A stretch of 64,000 nucleotides of DNA from a virus: IMG/VR virus record IMGVR_UViG_3300045993_000757, positions 1-64,000 of that record; one strand, given 5' to 3'. A program made the position numbers and the translations under genes. Under the pieces are notes generated by a model. That model saw nothing but the letters and a program-made list of their open reading frames with translations, was not told where the DNA came from and ran no database searches. Shown here piece after piece: positions 32,582-64,000 of this stretch. How positions within the stretch are numbered: position 1 is the first letter of the stretch; each line of letters begins with the position of its first letter.

Positions 32582-32585
32582 ACTC

Positions 32586-47904: not shown

Positions 47905-50900
47905 ATGCCCAAATATCCGCTGACCTTGCCGAACGGACAGTCGTTCGACATCGACTCGCCGAACGAGCTGTCCCAGTCCCAGCTCGCCGAAGCCCAGGGC
48001 CAGCTCATGGCCCAGTTTGGACAGGCCCAGCCCGACCCGACTCCGGTCGCCGAACCGTCGTTGTCCAATAACGCCTTCGATCCGATCGGTGCGGTGCGCG
48101 ATGCCATTGGACAGGAACTGCCTCCGCCAGAGTTCGGCGCCATGGATGTCCCTGGGGCGGCAGTTCGATCCACCATGGGTCAACTCGGTCAGGGGATGTT
48201 CAAGATCGGGCTTGGAGCCATGGGTCTGACTACGGGCCCATTGGTTGATGTGCTGACGGGAAACACACCCTTCCAGCAGAACCCAAGCTGGGAAACCCTG
48301 GGAGAAACGCTCAATCCCGCGAAGTCCTACGCCCGGTTTAAGCGCGGCGCCATGGCGCAGAATATAAATGACCTAGCGCGTTCTTCGGTCCCCGTCTGGG
48401 AAAGGCAGAACGATCCTTCCATCGCCCAGCCCACAGGGTTCACGAAGTCAGCCATCGATTTCACGGGGGGCGTTGCTTCCTCCGTCATCATGTCCCTTCC
48501 CGCCATGGTCACCGGGATCCCCGGGCTCATCGGGATGTCCATGGCCACGTTCGATCCGGCCTTTGAGGAGGCCCAGTCGAAGGGCGCAGGCGACACAAAA
48601 GCTTTCGCGCACGCCGTCCTTTCCACGGCGTTCGAAGCGGGATCCGAATACGTCGGATCGGCCTGGGCCAAGACCGCCCGGATGATGGAAACGATGCCGT
48701 ACCTACCGCCGACCGTGCGGAAGTACCTGTTCCAGGCAGAGCGAGGCCCCGTGGAGGATGCCGCCAAGGAAGCTGCCAGGAGTTTCTGGGGGACACTCGT
48801 TGGCACAGCCAGCAGGAAGGACGGGATCCACCTCGGCACCGCGACGATGGAAGGGCTGGAGGAAGTCTTCAGCACCGTGGCCCAGCGCATGAGCGCGGCC
48901 ATGCTCTACGACCCGACCCAGATCACGAACATCGGCGACCTGATGATGGACGCCGGGATGTCGTTCCTGGGCGGTGCCGCGGCGGGTGTGGCCTTCACCC
49001 CGCTGGAGCGCCGTGTCGCGCGCCAGAAGGTCGGCGAGGCGATGCGGAGCGGTGTCTTCGAGCAGTACCGCACGGCCCTGGAAGCCGCCAAGAAGGACGG
49101 CGCGTACCGACCTGAGGACCAGAAGGTCGTCAACGAGGCGGTCACCGGCCGTCGCCTGATGGAGCTTGGGGCTCTCTGGGGCAACACCGACATGGTGGCC
49201 AAGGGGAAGGAACAGCTCGCCGCCGCCACCACGCCCGAAATGGCAGCCGCCACGGAGGCGGAGGTGAAGAAGGCCGCGGAAATGTTCCACGCCGTCCAGA
49301 CCCCGGAAGGAGCGGCGACGGCTCACAAGCTGGCGGTCGATCAGTTCGGTGCGGACAGTCCCCAGGCGAAGAAGATGGCCGAGCTAGTGAATCAGGCCAA
49401 CGAGCACCGGCTGGACATCGCCCGTGCCCAGGCCGTGCAAACCTCCGGCCCCGGCATGAAGTCGGAGGAGTGGGCCAAAGTCGTCACCCAGGAAGGTCTT
49501 TCGCCTGACCGCGTCGAGCTGCACGCCAGCCAGGGATTCCGCGACAACGAGACGGGTCTTCCCACCGAAAATCCCAAGGATTCCCAGGGCCGTCCCAATC
49601 AGGAGCAGGAAGGCTACGTCGATCCGCAGACCGGCAAGATCCACATTTACCAGGGGTCCATCCTGGGCGACATCAACGCCGGCCGGGGATCCCGCCGCGT
49701 CCGCCAGCGTGAGCACTTCCGCCAGGTGTTGCGGGAGGAGGCCGCGCACACGGCGCTTCAAACGCCCCTGGGCCGGAGCCGCCTCAACGCCTACGTCGAG
49801 CACCTTAAGGCGAACGACTCGAAGGCCTACCAGGCGATCGTGGACACGCTGGCAAGGCAAGGATACCACCCCGACATCATCCCCGAGGAGTACGTCGCCA
49901 AGCTCTACCGGCAGCAGTCCTGGTTCCAGCAGAAGGTCGATGACTTCATGCTGGCCCTGCACCGTTGGACCGGCATCGGGAAGCTGAATCACGTTCGCGC
50001 CGGACGCTTGCTGATCCGCAGTCTCGTGGAGCATTCCCGGCAGGGGAACCTTCGCGGGAACGCCGGCGCTTTCCAGCCTGCCAACGCCGCCGCCGATGTC
50101 CGCCAGCAGGAGTCGCGGCTGGACATGGCCAGGATCCGCGCCCTGAACACGGAGGAGGCCAAGGTCATCGCGTCCGGACACGCCGCGATACTGACCCAGC
50201 CCCAGCTAGAGCAGGCGATCCGCGACCTGACGACGCGCTTGGAACTCATGAACCGCCAGGGGATCGGCGGCATGGTCAAGCTGGAGACGGAGCGCGTCCT
50301 GAAAGCGGCCAAGGACGAGTTTGTGGCCCGCGAGAACGTCCGGCGTCAGGCCATCCTGAACCAAGCGACCGCGCCCGTGCAGCCGCCGACGCCCAACACG
50401 CCCCAGGGCGGCACGGCACCTTTCGTTCCGGTCATCGACCAGCAACCCCCGACACCACCCCCCAATGCCCCTGATCAACAGCAGCAGCAAACAGGCAGTC
50501 AGCCAGAACATCCGAACGGAAATGAAGGCGGGCAAGCCCCAGAAGCAGGCAATAGCAATAGCCCTGGCAGTCCAGCGGAGAGCGGAGCAGAAGCGCCGAA
50601 TCCGGAAGAAAGCAAGGTAGCCAGCTACGTTCCGCCGGAGAACCCCGGCCACATTGCTGCCGACCTTTCGACCAAGGTTCAGCAGGGGGATTTGACGCGC
50701 GACGAAGGAACCGCGCTGTCGATCAAGTTTGGGGTCCAGGGCGAGTTCGATCAGTTCATGGCCCTGATCGACAAGGTCGCCGCCCGCGAGGCTTCTGGAG
50801 AGGCTCAGGCGGAACGCGAGGCGCGCAAGGCCAAGATCGACAACATCGTCTCCCGGCTGCTCGTGGGCGATGAGGTGGACGGTGGCATTCTGGAGTCCAT

Positions 50901-53900
50901 CGAACCCAGGGCGGAAGACGACCACTGGTTCGTGGTCCGTCACCCCGGAGGAACGACATCCGCATCCAACGTCCCGCCGATCATCGGCAAGATGTTCGAC
51001 CCGGCCTGGGTCCAGTCCATTGAGTCCCGGAAGCTCACGCGCGAGAAGGTGCTGAAGGCGGAGGAGCTGAAGAAGAAGATCAAGGGCAAGGAGAAGCCCC
51101 AGGATGCTCGGGAACAGGCGGCGGCAGAGGCTCGTGCCAAGAAGGAGGCGTTCGAGCGCGCCGAGGCTGAACGCAAGGCCAAGGAAAAGGCGGACCAGGA
51201 TGCGGCCCGCAACGAGTTCGAGTCGGCTTTCCAGCAGGCGAAGGCCCTGGCTCCTGGCGACAAGGTTGGAAAACGAGTCGTCCAATCCAACAACACCGAG
51301 ACCACGGACATCCAGTTCGAGGGCGAGAACACCCCCGAGGACTACGAGAACGTCGCCGTCTTCATCATGGACGGAAACGACGTGGTGAAGGCTTCAACGC
51401 CACCGCCGGCCGCAGGCAAGACGTTCAAGGTGGGCGACCGAGTTCAGTGGATGGACGGGAAGATCACAAGGACTGGCGTCGTCCGTGAGCAAACCGCCAT
51501 CGGGGTATCAGTCAACGACGATGACTCGGGCAGGAACTACCTGCTGGCTTCGAGTGACTTGACTGAACTCAGTAAGCCCGTTTCGGACCAACCCCAAGCC
51601 CCCGCGATCATCGAGGCGTGGAAGAAGGGGAAGCGAGAACTGGCCCAGCAACTCGCCGATCGACTGCCCGAACCCGGTGACACATGGGCGTTCCGGACTT
51701 CCGACACCGGAAACCTGGCTGGGTATGGTGCCGGGGATTCCACCTTCACCCGAGACCTGACGGTGCGTGGCAAGCCTCTGTGGCAATGGATCAACGAGGC
51801 CCAGGCAGATACCCTTCCGAAACCCGGATCCAACGCCCAGGAGAACAAGCCGGCCGCAGGGATCACCGCGGACAACCTGCACAAGCAGAACCTCCGGATG
51901 TTCACGGGCATCCTGAAGCCCATCATCGAACGTGTCCGAGGAATCTTCGATCGCCTTGAACGGGGGAAGAAAGTCTCCCAAGATGACCATTCGTTCCTCA
52001 GTCGGTACAGGGCTTTTGCCACCGAGAAAGTTAGGTCTCTGAATGAGGGGTTTGGGGATGTCCCCGCGGAGAGCATCGCTCAGAAGTACACCGATGACTT
52101 CGAGGGCATTGCCTTGGCCCGAGATTACACCAAGGCCCAACTGGAGGTGGAAAAGAGGCACCTCACCAAGTTTGGGCAACTGTTTCCGACGGGATCCGAA
52201 ACAGGGAACATCATCTCAGGACTTCTGGGCCGCGTCATGGAAGCGATCAATCGCCATGATGGTGTCCCGATTCCTCGCCTCGCATCCAAGATTCCCAAAC
52301 GTCCTATCCGCAAGCCCTCGACCCGCGAGCGTGCCCCCGACCTGATCGACCTCCTGATCGACACCGTGGGGAAGATCGACCCCAAGCTGATCAAGGAGGC
52401 CAATCCAGACTTCAAGCCCACGGGCGCGGCCCGCCTGCTGTTCAGCCCCAAGGGAACTCCAGCCGACCAGGCCATGCACGCCGTGGTGGGACAGATGGGC
52501 GTCACGGCCGACATGAGCATCGACCAGTTCGCCGAGGCGATAACGGCGGCTGCCAATGGCAGGAAGGCCACACGCAAGGGCTGGGCGGCGGAAGGGGCCC
52601 AAAACGACGCGGATGCCAAGCGCGCCCTGGCGTTCCATGCGTTCCTGGATAAAGAACGCCCGTCAGGTCTTAGCGTCTCCGAGTTGAAGATGGGCGACAG
52701 CTTCACGGTGGACGGAGATCCTTTCTCCGTCATCGGGGTGGAGTACGGCGAGGATGGAGGGCCTTTCTCGGTTACCCTGGACGGCGGGAAGAAGTGGGGG
52801 ACCCAGGTTGTCGATGGGAAGAAACCAGTCACGGTTGATGACGGAAGCTTCGCGGGCGTGAACGGCCCCATTGAGCCGGAGACCAGCAAGCTCCCGTCCG
52901 AAATCGCGGACGAGATTCGTCGAGTGGTTGGATTCATCCAGGAGGTCAGGAACTACCTCAATTCCCAGCTTCAGTGGAAAGACAATCACAGCCGCTTTGT
53001 CGTGGAGGAATACCTCAAGGACAACGCTCAGGCCATCGAAGCCGCTCAGAAGACCATTCAGGAATTCAGAGACGTTGCTCCGACTCACAACATCGACGCC
53101 GAGCTCGTCATCGAGGAACTCGGCGGAGTTCCTGACATCACGCTTCCCCCTGAAAAACCTGCGGGCATCCCAGGCTTCTTCGACGCCATCGAGTCCGACG
53201 AGGACCGGATCGCCCGCGAGCGCAACGAGGCCGAGCAACGCCGCGCCAAGGCCGACGCCGACAAGCTCCGCGACCTGGCCAACAAGCCGCTCAAGGGAAC
53301 TGCTGGCGACCTGGGGCAGGGGGCCCTGTTTGCGGAACCCGGCGACCAGGACTTGTTCGCCCCGCCGCCGGCCGACGTTCAGCCCAAGCGCAAGGCCATG
53401 GACGCGATCCAGGCCAAGGTGGACGCCCAGGACGCCACCAAGCGCGCCAAGATCGAGGAGCTGAAGAAGCGGCTGAAGCCGAACATGGGCGGAGAAGACA
53501 TCACGCCGTTCTCCCTCAAGGAGCTTTCTCCCCAGACCAAGAACGACCTGATCGAACTGTCGGGGCTCTACCTGAGCAGCGACATCGTCTCCTTCGCCGA
53601 GTTCTCAACCAAGCTCATCGACGACTTCGGGGACAGCGTTCGTCCCTGGCTCCAATTCGCCTATGAAAGCTCTCGGTTCTCTCCTGGTGCGACTTACAAG
53701 GGATCAATGGACCCGGCTGATTGGGTCGAACAACTCGCCAAAAAATATGACTCAGGTGCCACTCCGGATCTGGAATCAGATCGCTTCCGAACAACAGGAC
53801 AACCTGGACCCGATCGCGGTCCAACTGTTCAGCCTGAAAACCTCGGACCAGCTCAACCTGGTGATCGACCTGTGGCACCAGGAGATTCGCAAGCTGACAC

Positions 53901-56900
53901 CGGAACCCCTGGTGGCGTCAGCGATCGTGGCGATTCTACCACTGATGCGCGCCCAGCGGGCGGTGAACGCCTTCCTGAGCCAGCGGCCAGCCCTGTCGTG
54001 GAACGTCCGGCAAGCCATCCCGGAACTCAACGGCCTGGACGAAGCGGTGGAACTGGGCGTGCTCGAGTATCGGCTGCGGCGCAATCAGACCTTGGATCTC
54101 CGGAAGCTCCTGTCGTCGCCCCAGACGTGGCAACTCCTCCGCCCGATTTTGGAGCGTACCCCAGCGACAACCCCGTCGCCGACCAAGCCGACGCCAACGC
54201 CCGATCCTACCCCTGGCTCTCCGCCGATCCCGGCAACATAGAGAGCACGCTTCCGATGCTGTTCCCCAGCCAGCGGAAGAACGTCTTCCTGGCGGAGCGG
54301 CGGTTCGCGGAGACCCCGGTGGCAGCCACGCACGCCTCGGGCACCGGCCTGGGCGATCCCAAGCGCGGGATCCTGTTCACCGATGGCACCGGCACCGGCA
54401 AGACCTACTCCGGGGCAGGCATCGTCAAACGCTTCCTCATGCAGGGGAAGACGCGGATCCTCATCGCGGTCCCGAACGCCAACATCATCGAGGCGTGGAA
54501 GTCGGCGATGAAGGACTTGGAGATCCCGCACTTCGTCCTTCCCGACACCAGCACCGCCGCCAAGGGCGTCACGCTGACCACCCAGGCGAACCTCCGAAAC
54601 AACGCCGAGCTCGCCAAGCAGGACTTCGACCTGGTGGTCATCGACGAGTCTCACAACCTCCTGTCCAACGAGGCGGGTGAGGCGAACGCGGGTCTTCGGT
54701 CCTTCCGGATGGTGGCCAACCACCCCGACAGCGTGGAGCGAAAGGCCACGAATGCCATCATCGGGCCTGCCCCGGTCCAGGCGGACTACGCAGGCGGAGG
54801 TGATTTCGCGGCTGCCCTTCACCAGTGGGACCAAAAGCGCATCGACAACATGGCGAAGATCAGCGCCGAGGTGAAGCGGATCAACGAACTGAACACCAAG
54901 GCGCTCTTTCTTTCAGCTACGCCATTCGCCTACCACACCTCGCTCATCATGGGCGACGGGTTCCTCTACTCCCTGCCCGACGACAGTCAGCGAACCGGAT
55001 ACAATCAGCCCAAGGGATTCGACCGGTTCCTCGCCGAGAACCTGGGATGGCGGATGCGAACTGGGAAGCTGAACAAGCCCAGCGCAAACGTGGACACTTC
55101 GGTCATGGAGATCCAACTCCACGACCTGTTCGCCAAGCGCGGGGCCATGCACGGCGTCTCGCTCGATGTTCCCCAGGACTACAGCCGGGAGTTCGTCCTG
55201 GTCCGACCGGCCGCAGCGCAGAAACTCGATGATGGGTTCTCGTTCTTCCGTGGCGGCGAGTCGTACCAGCAGCAGTACCCGATCCTCAATAAGGTCTTCA
55301 ACGAGCTCTGGGACTACAACCACGTCGCCCAACTCCTCGAAGCATTGAAGATGGACTCTGCCATCGAACGCATCCGCCAGCACGTTGCCATGGGCAGGAA
55401 GGTCATCCTGCTCCACAGCTACCTGAAGGCGAAGATCCATGCCCACCCCTTCCGGTTCGAGACCTACCCGCCGGAATTCCTGATGGCTTTCAACGGGGCG
55501 GATCTCAAGGCTGAGATGGACCGTTTCCGGAACGATCATGCCGAGTGGGCCAACATCGTCATGCCCGACTCTGAGCTTTCGTTGGAGAAGATCCGCCGCG
55601 AGTTCGGAGACTCCGTGGTCTTCAACAACGGCAAGGAGGCCCCCCGAAGTCGTGTCGAGGCGGTGATCGACTTCAACCGCGACGGTGGCGGCGTGAATCT
55701 CCTGGTCGGTCAGCTTCAGGCGACCAAGGAAGGCGTCTCGCTCCACGACAAGAGCGGGAAGCACCAGCGCGTCATGATGATGGTCGCGCTGCCCATCCGA
55801 CCCACCGATGCCATCCAGGCCGAGGGTCGCGGTTACCGGATCGGAGTGAAGACCGACGCCATCAACGAGTACATCGTGCTCCACACGATGATGGAGCGGT
55901 TCGCCTTCGCCTCGAAGATCAACGAGCGCGCGGACACCGTGGAAACCCTGGCCCTGGGATCGGACAGTCGAAACCTTCGCGACCGATTCCGCGACGGCTA
56001 CCTCAATGCCATCGACGCGGATCCCAACGACCAGCAGGGCAAGGGAAGCAAGGAGGCCGACCGCCGCGCCGAGACGATGTCGGACTTCGACCGGGCCGTG
56101 TCCTTCTACTTCGCCCGCACGAAGAAGAACTCCCGGACCAAGAGCGCCGAGGGGCTGGACTACTACCCCACGCCGGAGCCGCTGGGGCTCAAGATGGTGG
56201 AATGGGCTGACCCAAGCGCCGGGGACGCCCTGCTGGAGCCTTCCGCCGGCCACGGGGCCATCGGCCAGTGGTTCCCCAACATCGGCCAGCACGCCTACCT
56301 GGAACCCTCCGCCGAGCTTCGCAGCGAGCTGGGAATCAAGGTGAAGGCGGGGACCGTCTACTCGACGACGTTCGAGGACTACCACATCACGAACAAGTTC
56401 GACGAGATCGTGATGAACCCGCCGTTTGGTCGGGCGGGGGCCACGGCGTTCGCGCACCTCGCCAAAGCTTTCCGACATCTGGTAATGGGCGGGCGTATCG
56501 TCGCCCTGGTTCCCGATGGGGCCAACACGAACGACAAGATCGTCGAACTCCTAAGGGCCGGGAATGATCCCACGGGGCACTATGACGGCCGAGTGTTGCG
56601 GGCGGACATATCGCTTCCTTCGTCCGTGTTTGAACGGGCCGGGACCAGCGTTCGGACTCGCCTGCTGATCTTCGATACGCCGACCTATTCCGATCTCCAC
56701 TCCGGCCACCGGATCGGAGAAGGGCTTGAGAACCTGTTCCCGCCCACGTTCACGACCAAGATCGAGGCCAACACCATCCAGGAGTTGTTCGACCAGATCC
56801 GCGACCTGGACGTTCCGGCGCGAATCCGGAAGCCCAAGCCCGCCCCAAGCAATCCGCTGACCACACGGGACGCCATCATCCAGACGACATCCCAGGGCCC

Positions 56901-59900
56901 CGGCGTCGTTCCCACCCGCCAGCAGTCCACCACACCCCAGCTTCCTCCGTTGTTCAAGCTGGGTCAGACGACGCACGCGAAGAAGGGGATCCAGTTGTTC
57001 GTCGCCACGCTGACCAAGAGCTTGAGCGATGCGAACTTCTCCGTAGTCAACCGGATCGCCAAGAAGCACGACGGATACTACTCGGGGTACAACAAGGCCA
57101 ACGCGATCCCAGGATTCCAGTTCGACGCCGCGGATCAACGAGACGATTTCGTCGCCGAGGTTGAGCGGGCACTCCGACCTCCCGACGAATCCACTCCGAC
57201 CTACTCCCTGAAGGCGCGCGATCCGTTTGAGGTCAACGACATCACGCGCACCCGCGGGGCCATCATGGCTTCCATCGGAGTGCCGCACGTCGCGGATGCC
57301 ATGACGATGACCCCCGACGAGTTCGCCGCCGGGAAACATCCGACTGTCCTGGGGTTCTCTGGCAAGTCTCTATGGCAAGCCATCAACAGCGGGGATCCCA
57401 CCCTTTCGGCGTTGCTCCGTTCGCCCGCCTATTCGCTCAAGGTCCGTCCGGTGCAGTCGGACCTGTTCGACCGGGAGACGACGCGGAGCATCGCCCAAGC
57501 CTACACCTCGGCGGGAACGTCGCTGCCGAACAACCGCCCCGCCCTGTTCTCGGTGATCGACAACGGGGACGGGTGGAAGGCGCAGAGTCGAAACATCGAC
57601 TTCGGGGCCGGGAAGTCCTTGTGGATGGACGACGCCCTCAAGAGCCGGGGCGTGGAGAACCTTCGGTACGATCCATTCAACGAGGCCTCCGCCGTCAATG
57701 AGGCCACCGTCGATTCAGCTCTCCGCGCCCCGGCCGACACCTTGACCGTCGCCAACGTGCTCAACGTGGTCGCGCCGGAGGCTGCGTTGGATGAGACCAT
57801 CCGTCAAACCGCCCGCCTGCTGAAGCCGGACGGCAAGGCGTACTTCTGGGTCCACTTCGAGAACGGCAAGAAGTCCGGCGTTCCCCGCGGTCGCCCCGAC
57901 TCCTGGCAATGGCACCATAAGGCCGAGTGGTACGTCCCACACCTGAGCCGCTTCTACGGAAAGGTCGAGACCATCGGCCAGAACATGATCGTGGCCTCGC
58001 AGCCGATCCCCGTGGTGGGCGAATGGTCGCCGTCCGCGGAAGGGCCCACGTTCAGCCTCAAGCCGCGCGCCTACGACCTCACGCCGAACGGTGGGAATCC
58101 CATGGTGCCGCGCATCGGCTACCTCACCGGGAAGCACAGCGCCAAGATCCTCGCTCGCGCCCAGGCCCGCGGGGACATCGGGGCCCTGATTACGCCGACA
58201 TCGTCGCACTCATTGGACACGGCCCGGTCCTACCCGTTCTACGCCGTGGACAATGGCGTGTTCGGTAAGGCCGGGTTCAACGAGCCCAAGTTCAACGCCC
58301 TCCTGAACAAGATCCAACCGGGCGATCCCAAGGTCTTGTTCGTCGTGGCCCCCGATGTCCTGGCCCACCTTCCCAATGGCCAGGTGGTCGGGGATGCCGC
58401 GGCGACCATCGAGCGGTTCAAGGATTGGGGCCCTCGGATCCGGGAGCGCGGTCTTCCCGTGGCTTTCGTGGCCCAGGACGGGCTGGAGGATCGGTTCAAC
58501 GACATCCCATGGGACGGTATGGACGTGCTGTTCATCGGCGGGTCCACGGGCTGGAAGCTGGGCGAGTTCGCCGATCCGGAGCGCCGGCGGCGGTGGGAGT
58601 ATGTGATGGGCGAGGCGCACAACCGCGGCATCCCGATTCACATGGGGAGGGTGAACTCCAACGAGCGCCTGACGGGCCACGCCGTGGACATGGCTGCGTC
58701 CACCGCGGACGGGACCCTCCTGGCGTTCGGGGAGGACATCAACTTGCCCAGGCTCGAATCATGGCTGGATCAGTTGAACCACGGGGGGCTGTCTTACGCG
58801 GCTCGGAACATGACGGAGTTGGGAAGATTGCCCACGAGGCGGGAGATTATCGACTTGGCCAGTGATCGGAATCTTGCCTATGAAACCCTCGGGGCATTTG
58901 AGCCCGCCCTGGACGAGATCAACGCCACGCGCAACGAACTTGGGCTGCCCCCAATCGCACCCCGCCAGTTCGATCCGGGCCAAGCTGAGTTCGGTTTCTC
59001 GCTGAAAAAGCCAGTCCGGATGTTCCGCAGCTACGCCGAGTTGGAAACGGGGGCTCTCCAGTTCGAGTCCTGGCGCGACTGGTACTCGGCCGACAAGGCG
59101 AACATAGACTCTATGTTCGGTAAGGATGCCCCGCTGTTCGCACAGGTTCTCGCTGCCACGTCCATCCAGACTGAGGTTCCCGATAATGTCGGTCGAGCCT
59201 TGCGCGCCTACATTGAGATGATTCAGGGAGCGCCATTCACTGGTCAGATCCCATCGGCTAGGGTCAATTTGGAGCGAATCCGGGATGGAGAGTCGATCCG
59301 TGGCCCCAAGATAGAACCTTTTGCTCGGGCCATCATGGGCGATGAAAGCGCGATCGCTGTTGACAGGCACGTCATCCGCGCGATCTTCGGCGAGGACGCG
59401 GTCGCTACTCCGGCACTCATAAGAAAGGCACAAGATGTCATTCGCAAGATTGCGGCGAAACACGGGTGGACTCCTCGGCAAACCCAGGCCGCAGTCTGGG
59501 CTTGGAAAATCAATCTCAACGGGAAAACCCCCCAACGATACCTCGACTCCCTCACTCCCGATCGCTTCGCTAGCACAATCCGTGGATCAGGAGTTGAAGG
59601 ACTCGTTCGATCGCGCACGAATTTTGGACAGGGAACTCAAGCAGGCGTTGGGACCGGGGCGGCAGACACCGGATCCGGAGTTCAAACGGGAAATGAAACC
59701 CCCGCTTACAGCCTAAAGACCCCGCCCGATCACCGGCCGCTCGCGGAGGACATCAACGCTTTCCGCACCGAGTTCCCCACGGCCCCGCCGATCGTCGTCA
59801 ACCAGGACGATGCCGCGCGCGGGGCCCGGTTCGAGAATGGCGAGATCGTGGTCGCTGAGACCATGATGCCCAGCAGCCGCACCGGTCGCCGGGCGGAACT

Positions 59901-62900
59901 CCTGGCGGCTCTCTCAGACGCCGGTCGGCTGAACATTCCCCAGGGATTCTGGGATCGAAGCTGGAAGGGTCTTGTCGCGGCTTCCCCCGTCCTCATCGAG
60001 GAGACACGCAAGTCCATTGGCGGGAACATCGACACCCAAGAAGGCCGCAATGCCATCCTGGCTGAGTTGGTGAAGCGGACATCAAAGTCCTCCGCCCCCG
60101 TGGGATTCGTGCGTTCGGCCCTGGCGTTCTTCCGTGGCCTCGACCAGACGAAGACCCCGGCCTACATCATCGCGGCCATGCAGCGGACGCTGGACCGGGT
60201 GACCGACCAGTTCACGCCACACCAGGCGGGGCCGCAGGGCGAGGCGGACTTCGGACCCACCGACACGCTCCACCAGTACATCGGCGGTCTCAACCGCGAC
60301 GGATCACAGCGGGCGAGTGGCGTTCAGGAACAGGTCTTCGCCGACCAACACTTCGCCCTTTGGAACTCCTTCGAGCCTGAGCTTTCCCGCATGGAGGCGC
60401 GGCTCTCCGATCTTCAGACGGGGCTCCTGGAGGACCACCAGTTCGAGAGTGTCCGCCAGCGGATGCAGCAGATCGCCGACACGGTCCTGGCAACGAACAT
60501 TGCGAACCACCGGCGCGCGGCCCTGAACATCGCCGCCGATGACTTCATCGACCAAGTCCAGGAGGTGAATCCTGACCTCCTCACCCGCGAGGACATCGAG
60601 AACCACAGCATCTATCTCAACGAGGTGAAGGCCCGGCGAGCCATGTCGCTCATGCAGAACATCGAGCGGAACAAGGCGACTCGCGATTACCTGACGGACA
60701 ACCTGCCCCAGTACCCGATTCAAACCCTGAACCGCCGCATCTCCCGGCAGCAGATCCGCCTGTCTGACATCGAGCAGAACCACCCCGAAATGTACGCTCG
60801 TGCCTCCGAGTTGAAGTCGCGGGTGGAAGGCGATCCCGCGGCCCGCGCCGCCGCCGATGCCATTTCCGACCCGGCCATCCAGGAGTGGGTCGAGGTCATC
60901 CATCAGATCCGCGAGAGCGGGACCCAGCCGCGCGCCCTGGCAGCCATGCCGGTGGCCATCCAGAATTCCGCCGCCGTCGCCGCCGGGGTGTTCCAGTACA
61001 AGGCCAGGGCCATGCGGCGGGAGCTGGGGGATCGCCTGGTTCGAACGACCGACACCGCCCTTCGCGCCCTCAACAAGCTCGTCGAGGAACGGCGCAATTC
61101 CCGGCAGAAGGAAGGTCAGATCGAAGTCGCCATGGTGGAGATGATCCAGGCGGCACGCGGGGACGCCGGGGCCAGCGGTGGCCTCTACACCCTGGAGGAA
61201 GCCAAGCGGATGCGGGACATCGGGGACCGCGCCATCGCCCGGTTTGCTCGATTCCTGGGGGCTTCAGATCCCGGAACGCTGCCGGCTGAGCTTCGGGATG
61301 CCTTCATCGAGGACAACCTGATGTCCATCGGGATCGACCCGGCGACCCTGAGCGGGCCCAACTCGTTCGATCTCGACCGGATCGCCACCGATGCCGGGAT
61401 CTCGCGGGAAGCCTTCCTTCAGATCATGGAACTGGCGCGCACCTCGCGCCCCTTCCAGAACATGGTGGTCGCCCTGGCCGACGAGGCCGACGAGCGCGCT
61501 GAGACCAGCATCCTCAACGCCATCCAGCGGCTCCAACGGGTCCGCAACGAAGTCCTGAGCCGCCCCAGGGATCCGGTGGACACCACCGGCCTGACCCCCA
61601 AGGAGGCGCGCATCGCCATCGCCCGATCCGAACGTGCCATCATCCGGCAGGCGAACCAGGAGGCGCTGCTCTCCGCGGCCCCGTTCCTGCGCTCCCTGAA
61701 GCAGCAGACCCTCGAACTCAAGCAGTCGAACCGGTCGATGGACACGCAGATCGAGCGGTTGGAACGCGAGCTTCAGACGATCCAGAACCTCTCCGACATG
61801 GCCAACGCCGTGGACGGAGCGGCCCACGAGCTGGCCCCCGACAACTTCGGGGTGGCCGAGATGGTCTACCAGACTTCGGACGGCGTCTTCATGGCGGAGT
61901 TCCTGACGGCGGAAGGAACCCAGCCCGGCGTCCGGGTCAGCCCTGGCGAGGAGTATTCGGCCGAGAAGATCATGGAGATCATCCTCTATCGGGACGCGGC
62001 CCTGCGCGCCATCGCTGCCAACGTGAACCCGCCGGAGATCACGCGCGGCTTGGAAGTCGCCGTGGACATGGTCCTCCCGCTGATCGACGCCAACTCGACC
62101 CCCGGATCCATCGGAAAGACCCTGTCCCCGAACGGCCTGTCCGAACAGTGGACGAAGTATCCCATGGGCGTTCGAGCCGCGATGCCCCGCTTGATCCCCG
62201 GCATTTCCGGCCGGCGACTGGCGGAATCCATGGCCACCTACGCCCGTGTCGGAAGCAAGGTCACCGCCATCCTCAACAAGTACCACGCCCGCCGCGTCCA
62301 GTTGCTCAAGGCGGCGATGGACTCGATGAACCTGTCGCCCACGGACGAACTGGCGCGGTCCTCGTTCCGGCAGGTTTACAGCGAGGTGGCCCATCGCCTG
62401 CGCGAACACGGATCCAACGTGGCTCCTGGCGATCAGACGTTCTCCGGAAATCACGGATCCATCGTGACCCCGGAGCTGATCACCCTCCTCCGGTACGACC
62501 GTGAAATCTTCAGGGCCGTCCAGGACATCGTGGAAAGCCTGCCCTACGGCGGCATCCGCGAGTCCATCCCCGGCATGGATGTCCGCCTCATTCGCCCCTC
62601 GGCCGAGACCGGCGACGTGGGCCTGGCCCGGTCAGTGAACAAGGACTTCGAAGTCCCCCTGGCTCGCGCCTATTCCGCCGCAGTCACCCTGGCGACGAAC
62701 CAGCAGAAGGTCACCGGACAGAACGTGATCCCCGACATCACCGCGTTCTGGGACATGAATCCGCACCACATCCTGTTCCACATCCTGGACGCTGGGCGGA
62801 ACGACCTGGCCTTCGCTCGCAATCCGCAGCTTGTGGCCTTGGAGAAGCGATACGCGGCCGACATCCGCGCCGGCCGGGCCCAGGCCCCCAGGACGGTGCA

Positions 62901-64000
62901 GCAGGTCGTGAATGCCCTGACCGCCCTGGCCGGGGGAAGAATCCCGCCCGCGACCGTGGCCAAGCTGTTCAACGAGGAGCTGAACCGTTACGGCAAGGTC
63001 GCCCTGACCCGGAACTCCCTGGAATCCGAGGCCCCCAAGCGTTCCGAGGGGGTTCACATCGGCGAGGATGACACGAACGAGTTCTCGTCCCCCGCGGCGA
63101 AGCTCATCTACCCCTCCGACTTCTACGAGTACGGGGCCAACGGGATCGACATCCGGCAAGCCGTGGAGCGCATGGCGGACCGGGCCCAGGTGGCCATGCT
63201 CGCGGCCATGGAGGATGCCGCCAAGACCCTGAACTCCATCGTCAGCCGCCTCCAAGGTCCGATCCAAGGCATCACGTCCGAGGATCATGACATCGTCCGT
63301 TGGTCCACGCCCAACATGGACAAGTCCACCCTGTTCAAGCGGGTCGCCGCGGCCATCGAGGTGCTCAACGACCGGGCGCGGATGCTGCGCGCCGAGAAGG
63401 CCAAGCTGATCGACACCGGGGTATCCCCTGGAACGCTCGTTCAGCTCATGCGGGCCAACTTCCCCATGATCCTGAGCTGGCCGCGCGCCATGCTGACGAA
63501 CGTGGTGGGTGGGCCCATCGCCTCCGTCTACACCATGGCCGCGGTCTACGGCCGGCCGGCCGCGGTGCTGTTCGCCGCCCTGAATTCCATCGGAAGCATG
63601 GCCACGCTGGCATCCGAGTCGTTCCTGTGGACGGCGAAGAAGCTGGGATTCGATGTCACGGGGGGATCGAGCCCCAACTCCTTCCTTTCGAACCGCGCCG
63701 AGGCTCTGGACTGGCTGGAGTCGGTCGGCCTGGGCGTCACCTCGTACTCCCATGCCGAGATCCAGGAGTTGCAGTCCTATATGCAGGGGCCGGGCCTGAA
63801 GAAGGCGTTCTTCCGCGGGGCCCTGAAGGTCGGGGCCGCAGTCGAGAATGTCCTGGGGCAACACGTTGGCGTCTCCGCCGGCGACCGTATCCTGAACCGG
63901 TTCGCCGCCCAGATCGTCGTTCCCATGACCCTTTGGCGGCTGAAGAAGTTGGCCCTGCGCTGGCAGCAGCGACTTGCCAAGATGGATGTGGTGGCCGGGC
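47905..64000 (+). CDS. Polyvalent virion protein, >5,365 aa, C-terminus beyond window
   Basis: One frame runs from ATG 47905 to the window edge without a stop. In order: short start (MPKYPLTLPNGQSFDIDSPN); hydrophobic segments (180-220); zincin-like EEAAH (about 612); P/Q/G-rich linker (850-910); coiled coil (1043-1117); SH3-like (1174-1222, 1596-1638); disordered linker (1925-2110); SF2 helicase (2112-2686); adenine methyltransferase (2750-2890); GYYS-type domain (3016-3095); second methyltransferase-like domain (3190-3370); TGT-like (3395-3625); HhH-like (3700-3880); helix-rich remainder with hydrophobic patches. This matches large phage polyvalent proteins thought to enter the cell with DNA and counter host defence. 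DarB of phage P1 is a partial precedent for the helicase-methyltransferase pair. Confidence 0.9.
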   Translation, partial: MPKYPLTLPNGQSFDIDSPNELSQSQLAEAQGQLMAQFGQAQPDPTPVAEPSLSNNAFDPIGAVRDAIGQELPPPEFGAMDVPGAAVRSTMGQLGQGMFKIGLGAMGLTTGPLVDVLTGNTPFQQNPSWETLGETLNPAKSYARFKRGAMAQNINDLARSSVPVWERQNDPSIAQPTGFTKSAIDFTGGVASSVIMSLPAMVTGIPGLIGMSMATFDPAFEEAQSKGAGDTKAFAHAVLSTAFEAGSEYVGSAWAKTARMMETMPYLPPTVRKYLFQAERGPVEDAAKEAARSFWGTLVGTASRKDGIHLGTATMEGLEEVFSTVAQRMSAAMLYDPTQITNIGDLMMDAGMSFLGGAAAGVAFTPLERRVARQKVGEAMRSGVFEQYRTALEAAKKDGAYRPEDQKVVNEAVTGRRLMELGALWGNTDMVAKGKEQLAAATTPEMAAATEAEVKKAAEMFHAVQTPEGAATAHKLAVDQFGADSPQAKKMAELVNQANEHRLDIARAQAVQTSGPGMKSEEWAKVVTQEGLSPDRVELHASQGFRDNETGLPTENPKDSQGRPNQEQEGYVDPQTGKIHIYQGSILGDINAGRGSRRVRQREHFRQVLREEAAHTALQTPLGRSRLNAYVEHLKANDSKAYQAIVDTLARQGYHPDIIPEEYVAKLYRQQSWFQQKVDDFMLALHRWTGIGKLNHVRAGRLLIRSLVEHSRQGNLRGNAGAFQPANAAADVRQQESRLDMARIRALNTEEAKVIASGHAAILTQPQLEQAIRDLTTRLELMNRQGIGGMVKLETERVLKAAKDEFVARENVRRQAILNQATAPVQPPTPNTPQGGTAPFVPVIDQQPPTPPPNAPDQQQQQTGSQPEHPNGNEGGQAPEAGNSNSPGSPAESGAEAPNPEESKVASYVPPENPGHIAADLSTKVQQGDLTRDEGTALSIKFGVQGEFDQFMALIDKVAAREASGEAQAEREARKAKIDNIVSRLLVGDEVDGGILESIEPRAEDDHWFVVRHPGGTTSASNVPPIIGKMFDPAWVQSIESRKLTREKVLKAEELKKKIKGKEKPQDAREQAAAEARAKKEAFERAEAERKAKEKADQDAARNEFESAFQQAKALAPGDKVGKRVVQSNNTETTDIQFEGENTPEDYENVAVFIMDGNDVVKASTPPPAAGKTFKVGDRVQWMDGKITRTGVVREQTAIGVSVNDDDSGRNYLLASSDLTELSKPVSDQPQAPAIIEAWKKGKRELAQQLADRLPEPGDTWAFRTSDTGNLAGYGAGDSTFTRDLTVRGKPLWQWINEAQADTLPKPGSNAQENKPAAGITADNLHKQNLRMFTGILKPIIERVRGIFDRLERGKKVSQDDHSFLSRYRAFATEKVRSLNEGFGDVPAESIAQKYTDDFEGIALARDYTKAQLEVEKRHLTKFGQLFPTGSETGNIISGLLGRVMEAINRHDGVPIPRLASKIPKRPIRKPSTRERAPDLIDLLIDTVGKIDPKLIKEANPDFKPTGAARLLFSPKGTPADQAMHAVVGQMGVTADMSIDQFAEAITAAANGRKATRKGWAAEGAQNDADAKRALAFHAFLDKERPSGLSVSELKMGDSFTVDGDPFSVIGVEYGEDGGPFSVTLDGGKKWGTQVVDGKKPVTVDDGSFAGVNGPIEPETSKLPSEIADEIRRVVGFIQEVRNYLNSQLQWKDNHSRFVVEEYLKDNAQAIEAAQKTIQEFRDVAPTHNIDAELVIEELGGVPDITLPPEKPAGIPGFFDAIESDEDRIARERNEAEQRRAKADADKLRDLANKPLKGTAGDLGQGALFAEPGDQDLFAPPPADVQPKRKAMDAIQAKVDAQDATKRAKIEELKKRLKPNMGGEDITPFSLKELSPQTKNDLIELSGLYLSSDIVSFAEFSTKLIDDFGDSVRPWLQFAYESSRFSPGATYKGSMDPADWVEQLAKKYDSGATPDLESDRFRTTGQPGPDRGPTVQPENLGPAQPGDRPVAPGDSQADTGTPGGVSDRGDSTTDARPAGGERLPEPAASPVVERPASHPGTQRPGRSGGTGRARVSAAAQSDLGSPEAPVVAPDVATPPPDFGAYPSDNPVADQADANARSYPWLSADPGNIESTLPMLFPSQRKNVFLAERRFAETPVAATHASGTGLGDPKRGILFTDGTGTGKTYSGAGIVKRFLMQGKTRILIAVPNANIIEAWKSAMKDLEIPHFVLPDTSTAAKGVTLTTQANLRNNAELAKQDFDLVVIDESHNLLSNEAGEANAGLRSFRMVANHPDSVERKATNAIIGPAPVQADYAGGGDFAAALHQWDQKRIDNMAKISAEVKRINELNTKALFLSATPFAYHTSLIMGDGFLYSLPDDSQRTGYNQPKGFDRFLAENLGWRMRTGKLNKPSANVDTSVMEIQLHDLFAKRGAMHGVSLDVPQDYSREFVLVRPAAAQKLDDGFSFFRGGESYQQQYPILNKVFNELWDYNHVAQLLEALKMDSAIERIRQHVAMGRKVILLHSYLKAKIHAHPFRFETYPPEFLMAFNGADLKAEMDRFRNDHAEWANIVMPDSELSLEKIRREFGDSVVFNNGKEAPRSRVEAVIDFNRDGGGVNLLVGQLQATKEGVSLHDKSGKHQRVMMMVALPIRPTDAIQAEGRGYRIGVKTDAINEYIVLHTMMERFAFASKINERADTVETLALGSDSRNLRDRFRDGYLNAIDADPNDQQGKGSKEADRRAETMSDFDRAVSFYFARTKKNSRTKSAEGLDYYPTPEPLGLKMVEWADPSAGDALLEPSAGHGAIGQWFPNIGQHAYLEPSAELRSELGIKVKAGTVYSTTFEDYHITNKFDEIVMNPPFGRAGATAFAHLAKAFRHLVMGGRIVALVPDGANTNDKIVELLRAGNDPTGHYDGRVLRADISLPSSVFERAGTSVRTRLLIFDTPTYSDLHSGHRIGEGLENLFPPTFTTKIEANTIQELFDQIRDLDVPARIRKPKPAPSNPLTTRDAIIQTTSQGPGVVPTRQQSTTPQLPPLFKLGQTTHAKKGIQLFVATLTKSLSDANFSVVNRIAKKHDGYYSGYNKANAIPGFQFDAADQRDDFVAEVERALRPPDESTPTYSLKARDPFEVNDITRTRGAIMASIGVPHVADAMTMTPDEFAAGKHPTVLGFSGKSLWQAINSGDPTLSALLRSPAYSLKVRPVQSDLFDRETTRSIAQAYTSAGTSLPNNRPALFSVIDNGDGWKAQSRNIDFGAGKSLWMDDALKSRGVENLRYDPFNEASAVNEATVDSALRAPADTLTVANVLNVVAPEAALDETIRQTARLLKPDGKAYFWVHFENGKKSGVPRGRPDSWQWHHKAEWYVPHLSRFYGKVETIGQNMIVASQPIPVVGEWSPSAEGPTFSLKPRAYDLTPNGGNPMVPRIGYLTGKHSAKILARAQARGDIGALITPTSSHSLDTARSYPFYAVDNGVFGKAGFNEPKFNALLNKIQPGDPKVLFVVAPDVLAHLPNGQVVGDAAATIERFKDWGPRIRERGLPVAFVAQDGLEDRFNDIPWDGMDVLFIGGSTGWKLGEFADPERRRRWEYVMGEAHNRGIPIHMGRVNSNERLTGHAVDMAASTADGTLLAFGEDINLPRLESWLDQLNHGGLSYAARNMTELGRLPTRREIIDLASDRNLAYETLGAFEPALDEINATRNELGLPPIAPRQFDPGQAEFGFSLKKPVRMFRSYAELETGALQFESWRDWYSADKANIDSMFGKDAPLFAQVLAATSIQTEVPDNVGRALRAYIEMIQGAPFTGQIPSARVNLERIRDGESIRGPKIEPFARAIMGDESAIAVDRHVIRAIFGEDAVATPALIRKAQDVIRKIAAKHGWTPRQTQAAVWAWKINLNGKTPQRYLDSLTPDRFASTIRGSGVEGLVRSRTNFGQGTQAGVGTGAADTGSGVQTGNETPAYSLKTPPDHRPLAEDINAFRTEFPTAPPIVVNQDDAARGARFENGEIVVAETMMPSSRTGRRAELLAALSDAGRLNIPQGFWDRSWKGLVAASPVLIEETRKSIGGNIDTQEGRNAILAELVKRTSKSSAPVGFVRSALAFFRGLDQTKTPAYIIAAMQRTLDRVTDQFTPHQAGPQGEADFGPTDTLHQYIGGLNRDGSQRASGVQEQVFADQHFALWNSFEPELSRMEARLSDLQTGLLEDHQFESVRQRMQQIADTVLATNIANHRRAALNIAADDFIDQVQEVNPDLLTREDIENHSIYLNEVKARRAMSLMQNIERNKATRDYLTDNLPQYPIQTLNRRISRQQIRLSDIEQNHPEMYARASELKSRVEGDPAARAAADAISDPAIQEWVEVIHQIRESGTQPRALAAMPVAIQNSAAVAAGVFQYKARAMRRELGDRLVRTTDTALRALNKLVEERRNSRQKEGQIEVAMVEMIQAARGDAGASGGLYTLEEAKRMRDIGDRAIARFARFLGASDPGTLPAELRDAFIEDNLMSIGIDPATLSGPNSFDLDRIATDAGISREAFLQIMELARTSRPFQNMVVALADEADERAETSILNAIQRLQRVRNEVLSRPRDPVDTTGLTPKEARIAIARSERAIIRQANQEALLSAAPFLRSLKQQTLELKQSNRSMDTQIERLERELQTIQNLSDMANAVDGAAHELAPDNFGVAEMVYQTSDGVFMAEFLTAEGTQPGVRVSPGEEYSAEKIMEIILYRDAALRAIAANVNPPEITRGLEVAVDMVLPLIDANSTPGSIGKTLSPNGLSEQWTKYPMGVRAAMPRLIPGISGRRLAESMATYARVGSKVTAILNKYHARRVQLLKAAMDSMNLSPTDELARSSFRQVYSEVAHRLREHGSNVAPGDQTFSGNHGSIVTPELITLLRYDREIFRAVQDIVESLPYGGIRESIPGMDVRLIRPSAETGDVGLARSVNKDFEVPLARAYSAAVTLATNQQKVTGQNVIPDITAFWDMNPHHILFHILDAGRNDLAFARNPQLVALEKRYAADIRAGRAQAPRTVQQVVNALTALAGGRIPPATVAKLFNEELNRYGKVALTRNSLESEAPKRSEGVHIGEDDTNEFSSPAAKLIYPSDFYEYGANGIDIRQAVERMADRAQVAMLAAMEDAAKTLNSIVSRLQGPIQGITSEDHDIVRWSTPNMDKSTLFKRVAAAIEVLNDRARMLRAEKAKLIDTGVSPGTLVQLMRANFPMILSWPRAMLTNVVGGPIASVYTMAAVYGRPAAVLFAALNSIGSMATLASESFLWTAKKLGFDVTGGSSPNSFLSNRAEALDWLESVGLGVTSYSHAEIQELQSYMQGPGLKKAFFRGALKVGAAVENVLGQHVGVSAGDRILNRFAAQIVVPMTLWRLKKLALRWQQRLAKMDVVAG
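49714..49767 (+). other. Degenerate zincin-like motif in polyvalent protein
   Basis: Residues about 604-621 read HFRQVLREEAAHTALQTPLG. The local layout (basic, hydrophobic, E-x-x-H, then TAL) is that of a metallopeptidase motif, but the first histidine of HExxH is replaced by Glu. If this is a zincin-like domain it is probably inactive or uses another ligand; similarity may also be fortuitous. Confidence 0.35.
50465..50620 (+). CDS. Nested +1-frame gene: 51-aa basic protein with AGKPQKQA-type signature
   Basis: Within the P/Q/G-rich linker of the polyvalent protein, an ATG at 50465 opens a frame shifted by +1 and closed by TAG at 50620. It starts MPLINSSSKQAVSQNIRTEM and continues KAGKPQKQAIAIALAVQRRA. 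Small standalone phage proteins of the form MPL.kg.S.k.i..NI..e..aGKPQKQAvAIAl.. are a recurrent family in my memory of phage genomes, though of unknown function. GC3 in this frame is 38/51 (75 %), against 22/50 (44 %) for the main frame over the same DNA, so the nested frame carries the genome's normal codon bias. No clear Shine-Dalgarno is seen. Confidence 0.7.
   Translation: MPLINSSSKQAVSQNIRTEMKAGKPQKQAIAIALAVQRRAEQKRRIRKKAR
53663..54241 (+). CDS. Nested +1-frame gene: about 163-192 aa helical protein
   Basis: A +1 frame is open from ATG 53663 to TAG 54241; a likelier start is ATG 53750 (MTQVPLRIWNQIASEQQDN). The product is leucine/glutamine-rich, without the glycine/arginine excess typical of shadow frames (TSDQLNLVIDLWHQEIRKLT), and ends in a P/T tail. 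Over 140 codons GC3 is 113/140 (81 %), against 53/138 (38 %) for the main frame in the same stretch, while flanking main-frame codons are GC3-rich. The main frame reads as a P/G/D/T/S-rich linker here. Function unknown. Two sequencing indels swapping the frames is the main alternative. Confidence 0.55.
   Translation: MKALGSLLVRLTRDQWTRLIGSNNSPKNMTQVPLRIWNQIASEQQDNLDPIAVQLFSLKTSDQLNLVIDLWHQEIRKLTPEPLVASAIVAILPLMRAQRAVNAFLSQRPALSWNVRQAIPELNGLDEAVELGVLEYRLRRNQTLDLRKLLSSPQTWQLLRPILERTPATTPSPTKPTPTPDPTPGSPPIPAT
54240..55960 (+). other. SF2 helicase domain of the polyvalent protein
   Basis: Motifs in order: TDGTGTGKTYSG (Walker A, about residue 2160), LVVIDESHN (DEAH-type Walker B, about 2247), LFLSATPF (motif III, about 2336), then NLLVGQLQATKEGVSL (motif V-like) and QAEGRGYRIG (motif VI with arginine finger, about 2640). 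All ATPase motifs look intact. Coupled to a methyltransferase domain immediately downstream, as in DarB-type anti-restriction proteins. Probably acts on injected phage DNA. Confidence 0.85.
56150..56570 (+). other. Adenine-N6-type DNA methyltransferase domain
   Basis: Residues about 2750-2890 contain YYPTPEPLGLKMVEWADPS, EPSAGHGAIGQW (SAM-binding motif I, about 2778) and MNPPFGRA (catalytic motif IV, NPPF, about 2837), followed by GGRIVALVPDGANTN. This is a standard N6-adenine methyltransferase core, with motif I before motif IV (gamma-like order). It could protect entering phage DNA from restriction. Confidence 0.85.
56950..57185 (+). other. GYYS-type polyvalent-protein-associated domain
   Basis: Residues about 3016-3095 contain HAKKGIQLFVATLTKSLSDA, then AKKHDGYYSGYN and PGFQFDA. 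A conserved HxKKG...AKxxgGyYS...pGFxF pattern is found in many phage polyvalent proteins after the helicase-methyltransferase pair; its biochemical role is not known to me. Confidence 0.65.
57460..58020 (+). other. Second SAM-methyltransferase-like domain
   Basis: Residues about 3190-3370 contain NIDFGAGKS (motif I, glycine-rich), NLRYDPFN, TLTVANVLNVVAP (motif IV-like) and LKPDGKAYFWVH. This resembles a class I methyltransferase found in many phage polyvalent proteins; the substrate (DNA, RNA or protein) is unknown. It starts after an [F/Y]SLK motif at 57430. Confidence 0.65.
58090..58780 (+). other. TGT-like (queuine tRNA-ribosyltransferase-like) TIM-barrel domain
   Basis: Residues about 3395-3625 read GALITPTSSHSLDTARSYPF, AVDNGVFGKAG, FVVAPDVLAHLPNGQVVGDA, VAQDGLE, VLFIGGSTGWKLGEF, HMGRVNSNERL and STADGT. 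The order of these blocks matches a family common in actinobacteria and phages that I associate with TGT/DpdA-like enzymes acting on deazaguanine bases. A role in exchanging or modifying bases in DNA is plausible but not shown; the remote match makes 'TGT-like' the safe call. Confidence 0.6.
59010..59560 (+). other. HhH-like DNA glycosylase/lyase-type domain
   Basis: Residues about 3700-3880 have FAQVLAATSIQTEVPDNVGR, then GPKIEPFARAIMGD and AVDRHVIRAIFGEDA with a late WTPRQTQAAVWAWK. These blocks (AATSpqT...NV, GpKi.pF..ai.GD, aVDrH) recur in a small phage protein family that I believe folds like HhH-GPD glycosylases; I have no proof of activity. Together with the TGT-like domain next to it, DNA base removal or exchange is a reasonable hypothesis. 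Confidence 0.55.
59435..59716 (+). CDS. Possible third nested +1-frame ORF (93 aa or shorter)
   Basis: A +1 frame is open from ATG 59435 to TAA 59716; a GTG at 59582 would start a 44-residue product (beginning VDQELKDSFDRARILDRELK). The last 53 codons have GC3 about 62 %, against about 45 % in the main frame, whose sequence here is a G/T/S-rich linker (GVGTGAADTGSGVQTGNETP). The signal is weaker than in the two other nested frames and the first third is less convincing. Confidence 0.3.
   Translation: MSFARLRRNTGGLLGKPRPQSGLGKSISTGKPPNDTSTPSLPIASLAQSVDQELKDSFDRARILDRELKQALGPGRQTPDPEFKREMKPPLTA

Follow-up and report, generated by a model that had tools for sequence, protein, structure and literature searches.

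The way in which bacteriophages make use of single proteins of 3,000-6,000 residues that combine several unrelated enzymes has yet to be explained, and processing of such proteins was proposed in 2017 without a site. The question is raised again by a polyvalent protein encoded in IMG/VR virus record IMGVR_UViG_3300045993_000757, which is 75,109 bases long and of which bases 1-64000, the whole stretch analysed here, are called the window. The gene is located at 47905-65703 (+) and codes for 5,932 amino acids (aa); 47905..64000 lies inside the window and the end of the gene beyond it. Disparate domains are present in the one chain, namely a helicase, a methylase, a second methyltransferase, a TGT, and DUF7178, and the phage setting of the gene is given by large terminase and tail-type matches in the virus record. 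Six copies of the tetrapeptide [FY]SLK in this protein support, at the sequence level, a peptide-level and non-random mark at the borders of modules known elsewhere as free-standing genes.

The preliminary description had reported FSLK or YSLK at residues 1869, 3100, 3176, 3383, 3698, and 3935, and all six were found there. The copies and the modules around them are as follows.

53509..53520, + strand: FSLK copy 1 (residues 1869-1872), 2 aa upstream of the conserved helical domain
53524..53784, + strand: conserved helical domain (about residues 1874-1960), with homologues in about 20 polyvalent proteins
54367..56694, + strand: dyad of SNF2-like helicase and adenine methylase (about residues 2155-2930)
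56962..57165, + strand: GYYS domain (about residues 3020-3087), from homologue alignments
57202..57213, + strand: YSLK copy 2 (residues 3100-3103), beginning 13 aa past the point where the GYYS domain alignments end
57214..57429, + strand: 72-aa segment separating copies 2 and 3, without match in the libraries and protein sets searched; a candidate orphan module of small size
57430..57441, + strand: YSLK copy 3 (residues 3176-3179), upstream of the second methyltransferase-like module
57460..58050, + strand: second methyltransferase-like module, Methyltransf_23 (below its cut-off)
58051..58062, + strand: FSLK copy 4 (residues 3383-3386), upstream of the DpdA/TGT-like module
58087..58800, + strand: DpdA-like TGT module, phrog_15826
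58996..59007, + strand: FSLK copy 5 (residues 3698-3701), N border of the DUF7178/HhH-like module
59008..59523, + strand: HhH-like module, DUF7178 (PF23802; phrog_3842)
59707..59718, + strand: YSLK copy 6 (residues 3935-3938), about 62 aa past the DUF7178 module; downstream border not known

Only 0.075 copies of [FY]SLK are expected from the composition of the 5,932 aa, and the six observed represent an 80-fold excess. Among all four-position gapped patterns in the protein, [FYW]SLK was ranked at the top (log10 P -9.2), while the best patterns in three shuffles of the protein reached log10 P -5.4 to -6.0. The tetrapeptide was not found in the other major open reading frames (ORFs) of the record; a lone [FY]SLR match falls within a questionable ORF of 60 aa. 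The flanks of the six copies are unrelated, with 5% mean pairwise identity. The codons are TTC-TCC-CTC-AAG, TAC-TCC-CTG-AAG, and TAT-TCG-CTC-AAG for copies 1-3 and TTC-AGC-CTC-AAG, TTC-TCG-CTG-AAA, and TAC-AGC-CTA-AAG for copies 4-6; serine alone is coded successively by TCC, TCC, TCG, AGC, TCG, and AGC, that is, by the TCN and AGC families, which no one-base change links. As the codons differ between copies, it is the peptide and not the DNA that is conserved, which bears out the preliminary description, and the differing codons together with the 5% flank identity exclude a DNA-level repeat or a recent DNA duplication.

The module borders were defined from homologues, independently of the motif. 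Five homologous alignments begin at residue 1874, 2 aa past the K of copy 1, and this copy is thus not set apart from the border copies as had been supposed; no [FY]S[LIVMRK] was found at its position in 10 aligned relatives. Copy 3 ends 7 aa upstream of the residue equivalent to Met1 in a free-standing methyltransferase of Vibrio phage K566. Copy 4 ends 9-30 aa upstream of the Met1-equivalent positions of free-standing DpdA/TGT-like genes (ZS04 about 3395, R29Z about 3402, Sonali about 3404, and Majeke about 3416), and copy 5 is at most 15 aa from the Met1-equivalent (about 3683) of a free-standing homologue of DUF7178 whose 29 N-terminal aa are unaligned. Altogether, five of the six copies lie no more than 20 aa from a homologue-defined border, a result not once equalled when positions were drawn at random 20,000 times from residues 1800-4000, although the exact figure is not to be relied on because the borders were listed manually. 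The earlier claim that the last five copies stand beside modules holds for copies 2-5 (within 20 aa); for copy 6 no independent border is known downstream. An AlphaFold model of residues 3090-3960 computed without alignment was unusable (predicted local distance difference test, pLDDT, 36), and no close relatives were recovered through the C-terminal part of the protein among the viral contigs searched.

The wider family was represented by set A (relatives of the helicase-methylase dyad), set B (LPD38-bearing proteins, phage records, and prophage loci), and set C (a second LPD38 subgroup), which after dereplication comprised about 150 polyvalent proteins and 0.5 million residues. The exact [FY]SLK was missing from 43 dereplicated dyad-sharing relatives (0 vs 2.7 expected) and was rejected as a family-wide motif. 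With regard to absence from close homologues, which the preliminary description had named as telling against the idea, FSLK is indeed missing there, and only [FY]S followed by a variable residue is shared. The sequences thus point to [FY]-S, continued in a phage-specific way, as the motif of interest rather than FSLK. In border zones, taken as the stretches adjoining the ends of local alignments, [FY]S[LIVMKR] occurred 21 times vs 8.3 +- 2.6 expected in set A without the window protein. This pattern was picked after set A had been viewed, and the independent set B, with 23 vs 12.0 +- 3.3, is the replication. Inside the domain cores of both sets it was at expectation, and the reversed tripeptide in border zones gave 5 vs 8.2 in set A and a weak 16 vs 11.7 in set B (p=0.13). 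In an unbiased ranking of tripatterns at borders, [FY]S[LIVMKR] was 6th of 1,211. The expected border enrichment in a large set of polyvalent proteins was consequently seen for the looser core in two of three sets, but neither for the exact tetrapeptide (0/43) nor in set C. Over whole proteins [FY]S[LIVM] was not enriched (127 vs 136), a broad logo around F/Y in hydrophilic linkers gave only a weak Ser signal, and a scan for repeated tripeptides did not differ between forward and reversed patterns.

Longer forms of the core are also in excess. The pattern [DE][IV]R[FY]S was found 12 times vs 1.2 expected in sets A and B together and seven times vs 0.49 in set C, and when its Ser was swapped for T, A, N, D, G, E, K, or L (in set C also Q), only 0-2 occurrences were left. 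The window protein's own form, P[AT][FY]S[LIVM], was found 11 times in the sets vs 2.65 expected, four of them from the window protein itself; set-C protein L244 has three and L229 has one, and neither of these two proteins, like the window protein, has an intact HExxH. A link to the 'PLxRFG' annotation was rejected, as PLxRFG sits in a C-terminal domain. As a separate observation, two dyad-bearing polyvalent proteins have repeated peptides of their own, mostly in linkers: [LF][GS]SRAMRG at residues 1881, 2500, 3789, and 4294 of L011, and KFNRKD at residues 2395, 2646, and 2841 of L038. These relatives may carry their own repeated tags (RAMRG and FNRK, respectively), which exceed shuffles in few copies each and are taken as a lead only.

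Where the 20 flanking positions are at most 25% identical, [FY]S[LIVMKR] was retained in 17.4 +- 1.7% of site comparisons and 12 control patterns in 1.0-12.6%; the effect is clear but moderate because the D (12.6%) and L (11.6%) controls are close below it. At a looser identity cut-off of 45%, its retention was indistinguishable from that of the D, N, and E controls. Examples of aligned motifs with unlike flanks are EAPAFSLRH/ETPAFSLRN and TDPRYSLDN/AEAIYSLAN. The residue class that follows [FY]S also agrees weakly within proteins (424 vs 383.8 expected, p=0.005), and none of nine control dipeptides reached 0.05 in the same analysis. From these comparisons, [FY]-S-[LIVMKR] appears to behave as a short linear motif that evolves rapidly and marks the borders between modules.

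The only peptidase-related domain recognised in the window protein is a degenerate one.

49609..49920, + strand: degenerate zincin metallopeptidase domain (residues 569-672), from homologue alignments

HExxH or HExxxH is present in 126 of 141 polyvalent proteins longer than 2,000 aa. Around it, [FY]S[LIVMKR] was found 30 times vs 12.7 at 30-200 aa upstream and 21 times vs 8.8 at 90-220 aa downstream, without excess inside the zincin domain, and most control patterns were flat in this region. This bracketing fits a motif at both domain borders and would suit self-excision, but a rule that holds for borders in general predicts it equally. The zincin of the window protein reads RQVLREEAAHTAL, and that of a relative RTILHEAVAHKGL; REEAAH (residues 610-615, 49732-49749) replaces HEAVAH, so that the first zinc-ligand His is lost while the Glu and the second His remain. 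HExxH was not found in any ORF of the record, nor HExxxH in the polyvalent protein.

The explanation favoured here, tentatively and at somewhat short of an even chance, is that the [FY]SLK border peptide is a processing site releasing the modules after delivery. The preliminary reading of the motif is thus borne out in part, with cleavage as a reasonable hypothesis. The protein is probably injected into bacteria; delivery into the host is suggested because related polyvalent proteins, gp60 of Pseudomonas phage H66 and gp69 of the Bcep22-like phage JC1, were detected in virions by mass spectrometry (for JC1 gp69, PMC9144972). In the proposed mechanism, [FY]SLK would be this phage's version of [FY]-S-[LIVMKR], which often takes the form D-[IV]-R-[FY]-S-x or P-A-[FY]-S-[LIV] and would be placed in flexible linkers at the module borders of polyvalent proteins. 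A processing protease would recognise it and, once the protein has been delivered, cut it into working enzymes, among them the methyltransferase, the TGT, and the HhH module. The obvious candidate for this protease would, in most members of the class, be the zincin that they contain; as the zincin here has lost a catalytic His, cutting would fall to a protease of the host or to one of the phage that has escaped recognition. Cleavage is favoured over other roles because each module is a complete enzyme also known as a gene of its own, and because processing of polyvalent proteins by the zincin has been argued from P1 DdrB, with no site named (Iyer et al. 2017, PMC5512222). A peptide repeated at domain junctions, the mark of a polyprotein, is present in the protein, and its recognition by a protease is presumed. 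The statistics cover the excess, the border position, the peptide-level conservation, and the retention; from these we infer the function itself.

Several results weigh against processing. The zincin of the window protein is a probable pseudo-peptidase, predicted to be dead, and no peptidase, and with it no phage protease that would recognise the motif, was recognised in the ORFs scanned with Pfam and PHROGs, most of which were without match in a record that may be incomplete. Proteins with and without a zincin had similar motif densities (p=0.24). The border enrichment was not replicated in set C (11 vs 10.9), where, we think, the zones were spoiled by dense sampling of colinear relatives, through which linkers became 'core'. 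The cases of [DE][IV]R[FY]S are not all independent, because several follow one upstream domain end (G-x-FD..NPDIR[FY]S). When hydrophilic contexts alone were taken, the consistency within proteins weakened to p=0.075, and a first, cruder test of it on crude linkers was null. N4 vRNAP is packaged uncleaved (cited in PMC5512222).

Docking would account for the border peptide without any cut: it would bind a host chaperone, ejection, or packaging protein that threads, unfolds, or refolds each module. In its favour, a peptide of aromatic-Ser-aliphatic-basic type that precedes each module in a hydrophilic linker is what a binding motif might look like, no protease was recognised in the scanned ORFs, and the residue after Ser differs among phages as a partner interface might. 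Bracketing of the peptidase domain is not specifically predicted by docking, though any border motif would yield it. In P1 DarB, one N-terminal signal of <30 aa is enough for packaging (PMC9024508), and the motif here is internal and repeated; the packaging role suggested in the preliminary description is for this reason unlikely. Docking as a whole is possible and is the main rival of processing, though held as somewhat less likely. The motif could also be a remnant of cargo-gene fusion spread by linker recombination, with no present function. The modules do exist as free-standing genes with starts adjoining the motif, and polyvalent proteins shuffle modules, with some borders lacking the motif. 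Such a scar is nevertheless disfavoured, because a neutral one would decay along with its flanks, while the motif is retained in otherwise diverged linkers, its codons come from two Ser families, and its flanks are unrelated; we regard it as unlikely. Chance, composition bias, or conserved motifs internal to domains would be the simplest source, given that S, L, and F are common, that there is no whole-protein enrichment, and that conserved FS-type motifs occur within helicase and LPD38 domains. For the window protein chance was rejected on the 80-fold excess, and elsewhere the position-specific excess and the control patterns speak against it, which makes this source highly improbable.

If processing is extended to the family, polyvalent proteins would be true polyproteins with a fast-evolving [FY]-S junction code in phage-specific variants, cut by the embedded zincin, or by another protease where it is dead, and freeing effector enzymes in the newly infected cell; this extension is speculative, and we hold it as conceivable but not probable. 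The border peptide supplies exact candidate positions for module processing. Should it prove to be a code for cleavage or docking, it would also show the starts and ends of modules in many unannotated phage giants.

Other features were observed in the record. Two giant proteins of 1862 and 1475 aa encoded at 26993-37013 of the window contain many SNFxxGDGxxKxxxTN-type repeats and are probable tail fibres, and an ORF at 67309-68277 of the record (7310-8278 of L006) has a strong match to DUF2382 (2.3e-18). Peptides of the form Q-x-[SDNG]-L-F, which resemble sliding-clamp (DnaN) binding motifs, were found 37 times in polyvalent proteins vs 14.4 expected, while the reversed pattern was found nine times and forms with N or E replacing Q were at expectation. 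One of them, QSDLF (residues 3184-3188, window 57454-57468), stands directly after copy 3; QGALF is at about 53317-53331 of the window, and further examples are in L011, L025, and L099.

In the polyproteins of eukaryotic RNA viruses, the same peptide occurs between successive enzymes. The window protein resembles them in this arrangement and differs in that an embedded active protease was not found and cleavage is only predicted. The substrates of prohead proteases (SPN3US gp245, A-X-E; PMC10052503) likewise have a short phage-specific motif repeated in head and ejection proteins, but the motif here ends in K and not in E as in AXE/LXE, it is restricted to the polyvalent protein among the major ORFs, and no prohead-type protease was recognised in the scanned ORFs. 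Capsid targeting sequences (T4 internal proteins; the N-terminal 30 aa of P1 DarB, PMC9024508) are also short peptides of head-packaged proteins; they are N-terminal and single, whereas the copies here are internal (residues 1869-3938) and repeated. Closest are the polyvalent proteins of PMC5512222, of which the zincin is a common but not obligatory hub. The window protein has a zincin homologue that has lost a ligand and has no intact catalytic motif, and it shares with them the very large multidomain architecture beside virion-type genes, the SNF2 helicase-methylase dyad, and the nucleic-acid-modifying modules. The text of Iyer et al. 2017 (PMC5512222) is without 'FSL', 'linker', or 'short motif' and does not describe a border peptide, and no description of one was found in the literature searched, the coverage of which is incomplete. 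Zincin processing itself was already proposed in that paper, and the border peptide and its looser core in the family are probably new.

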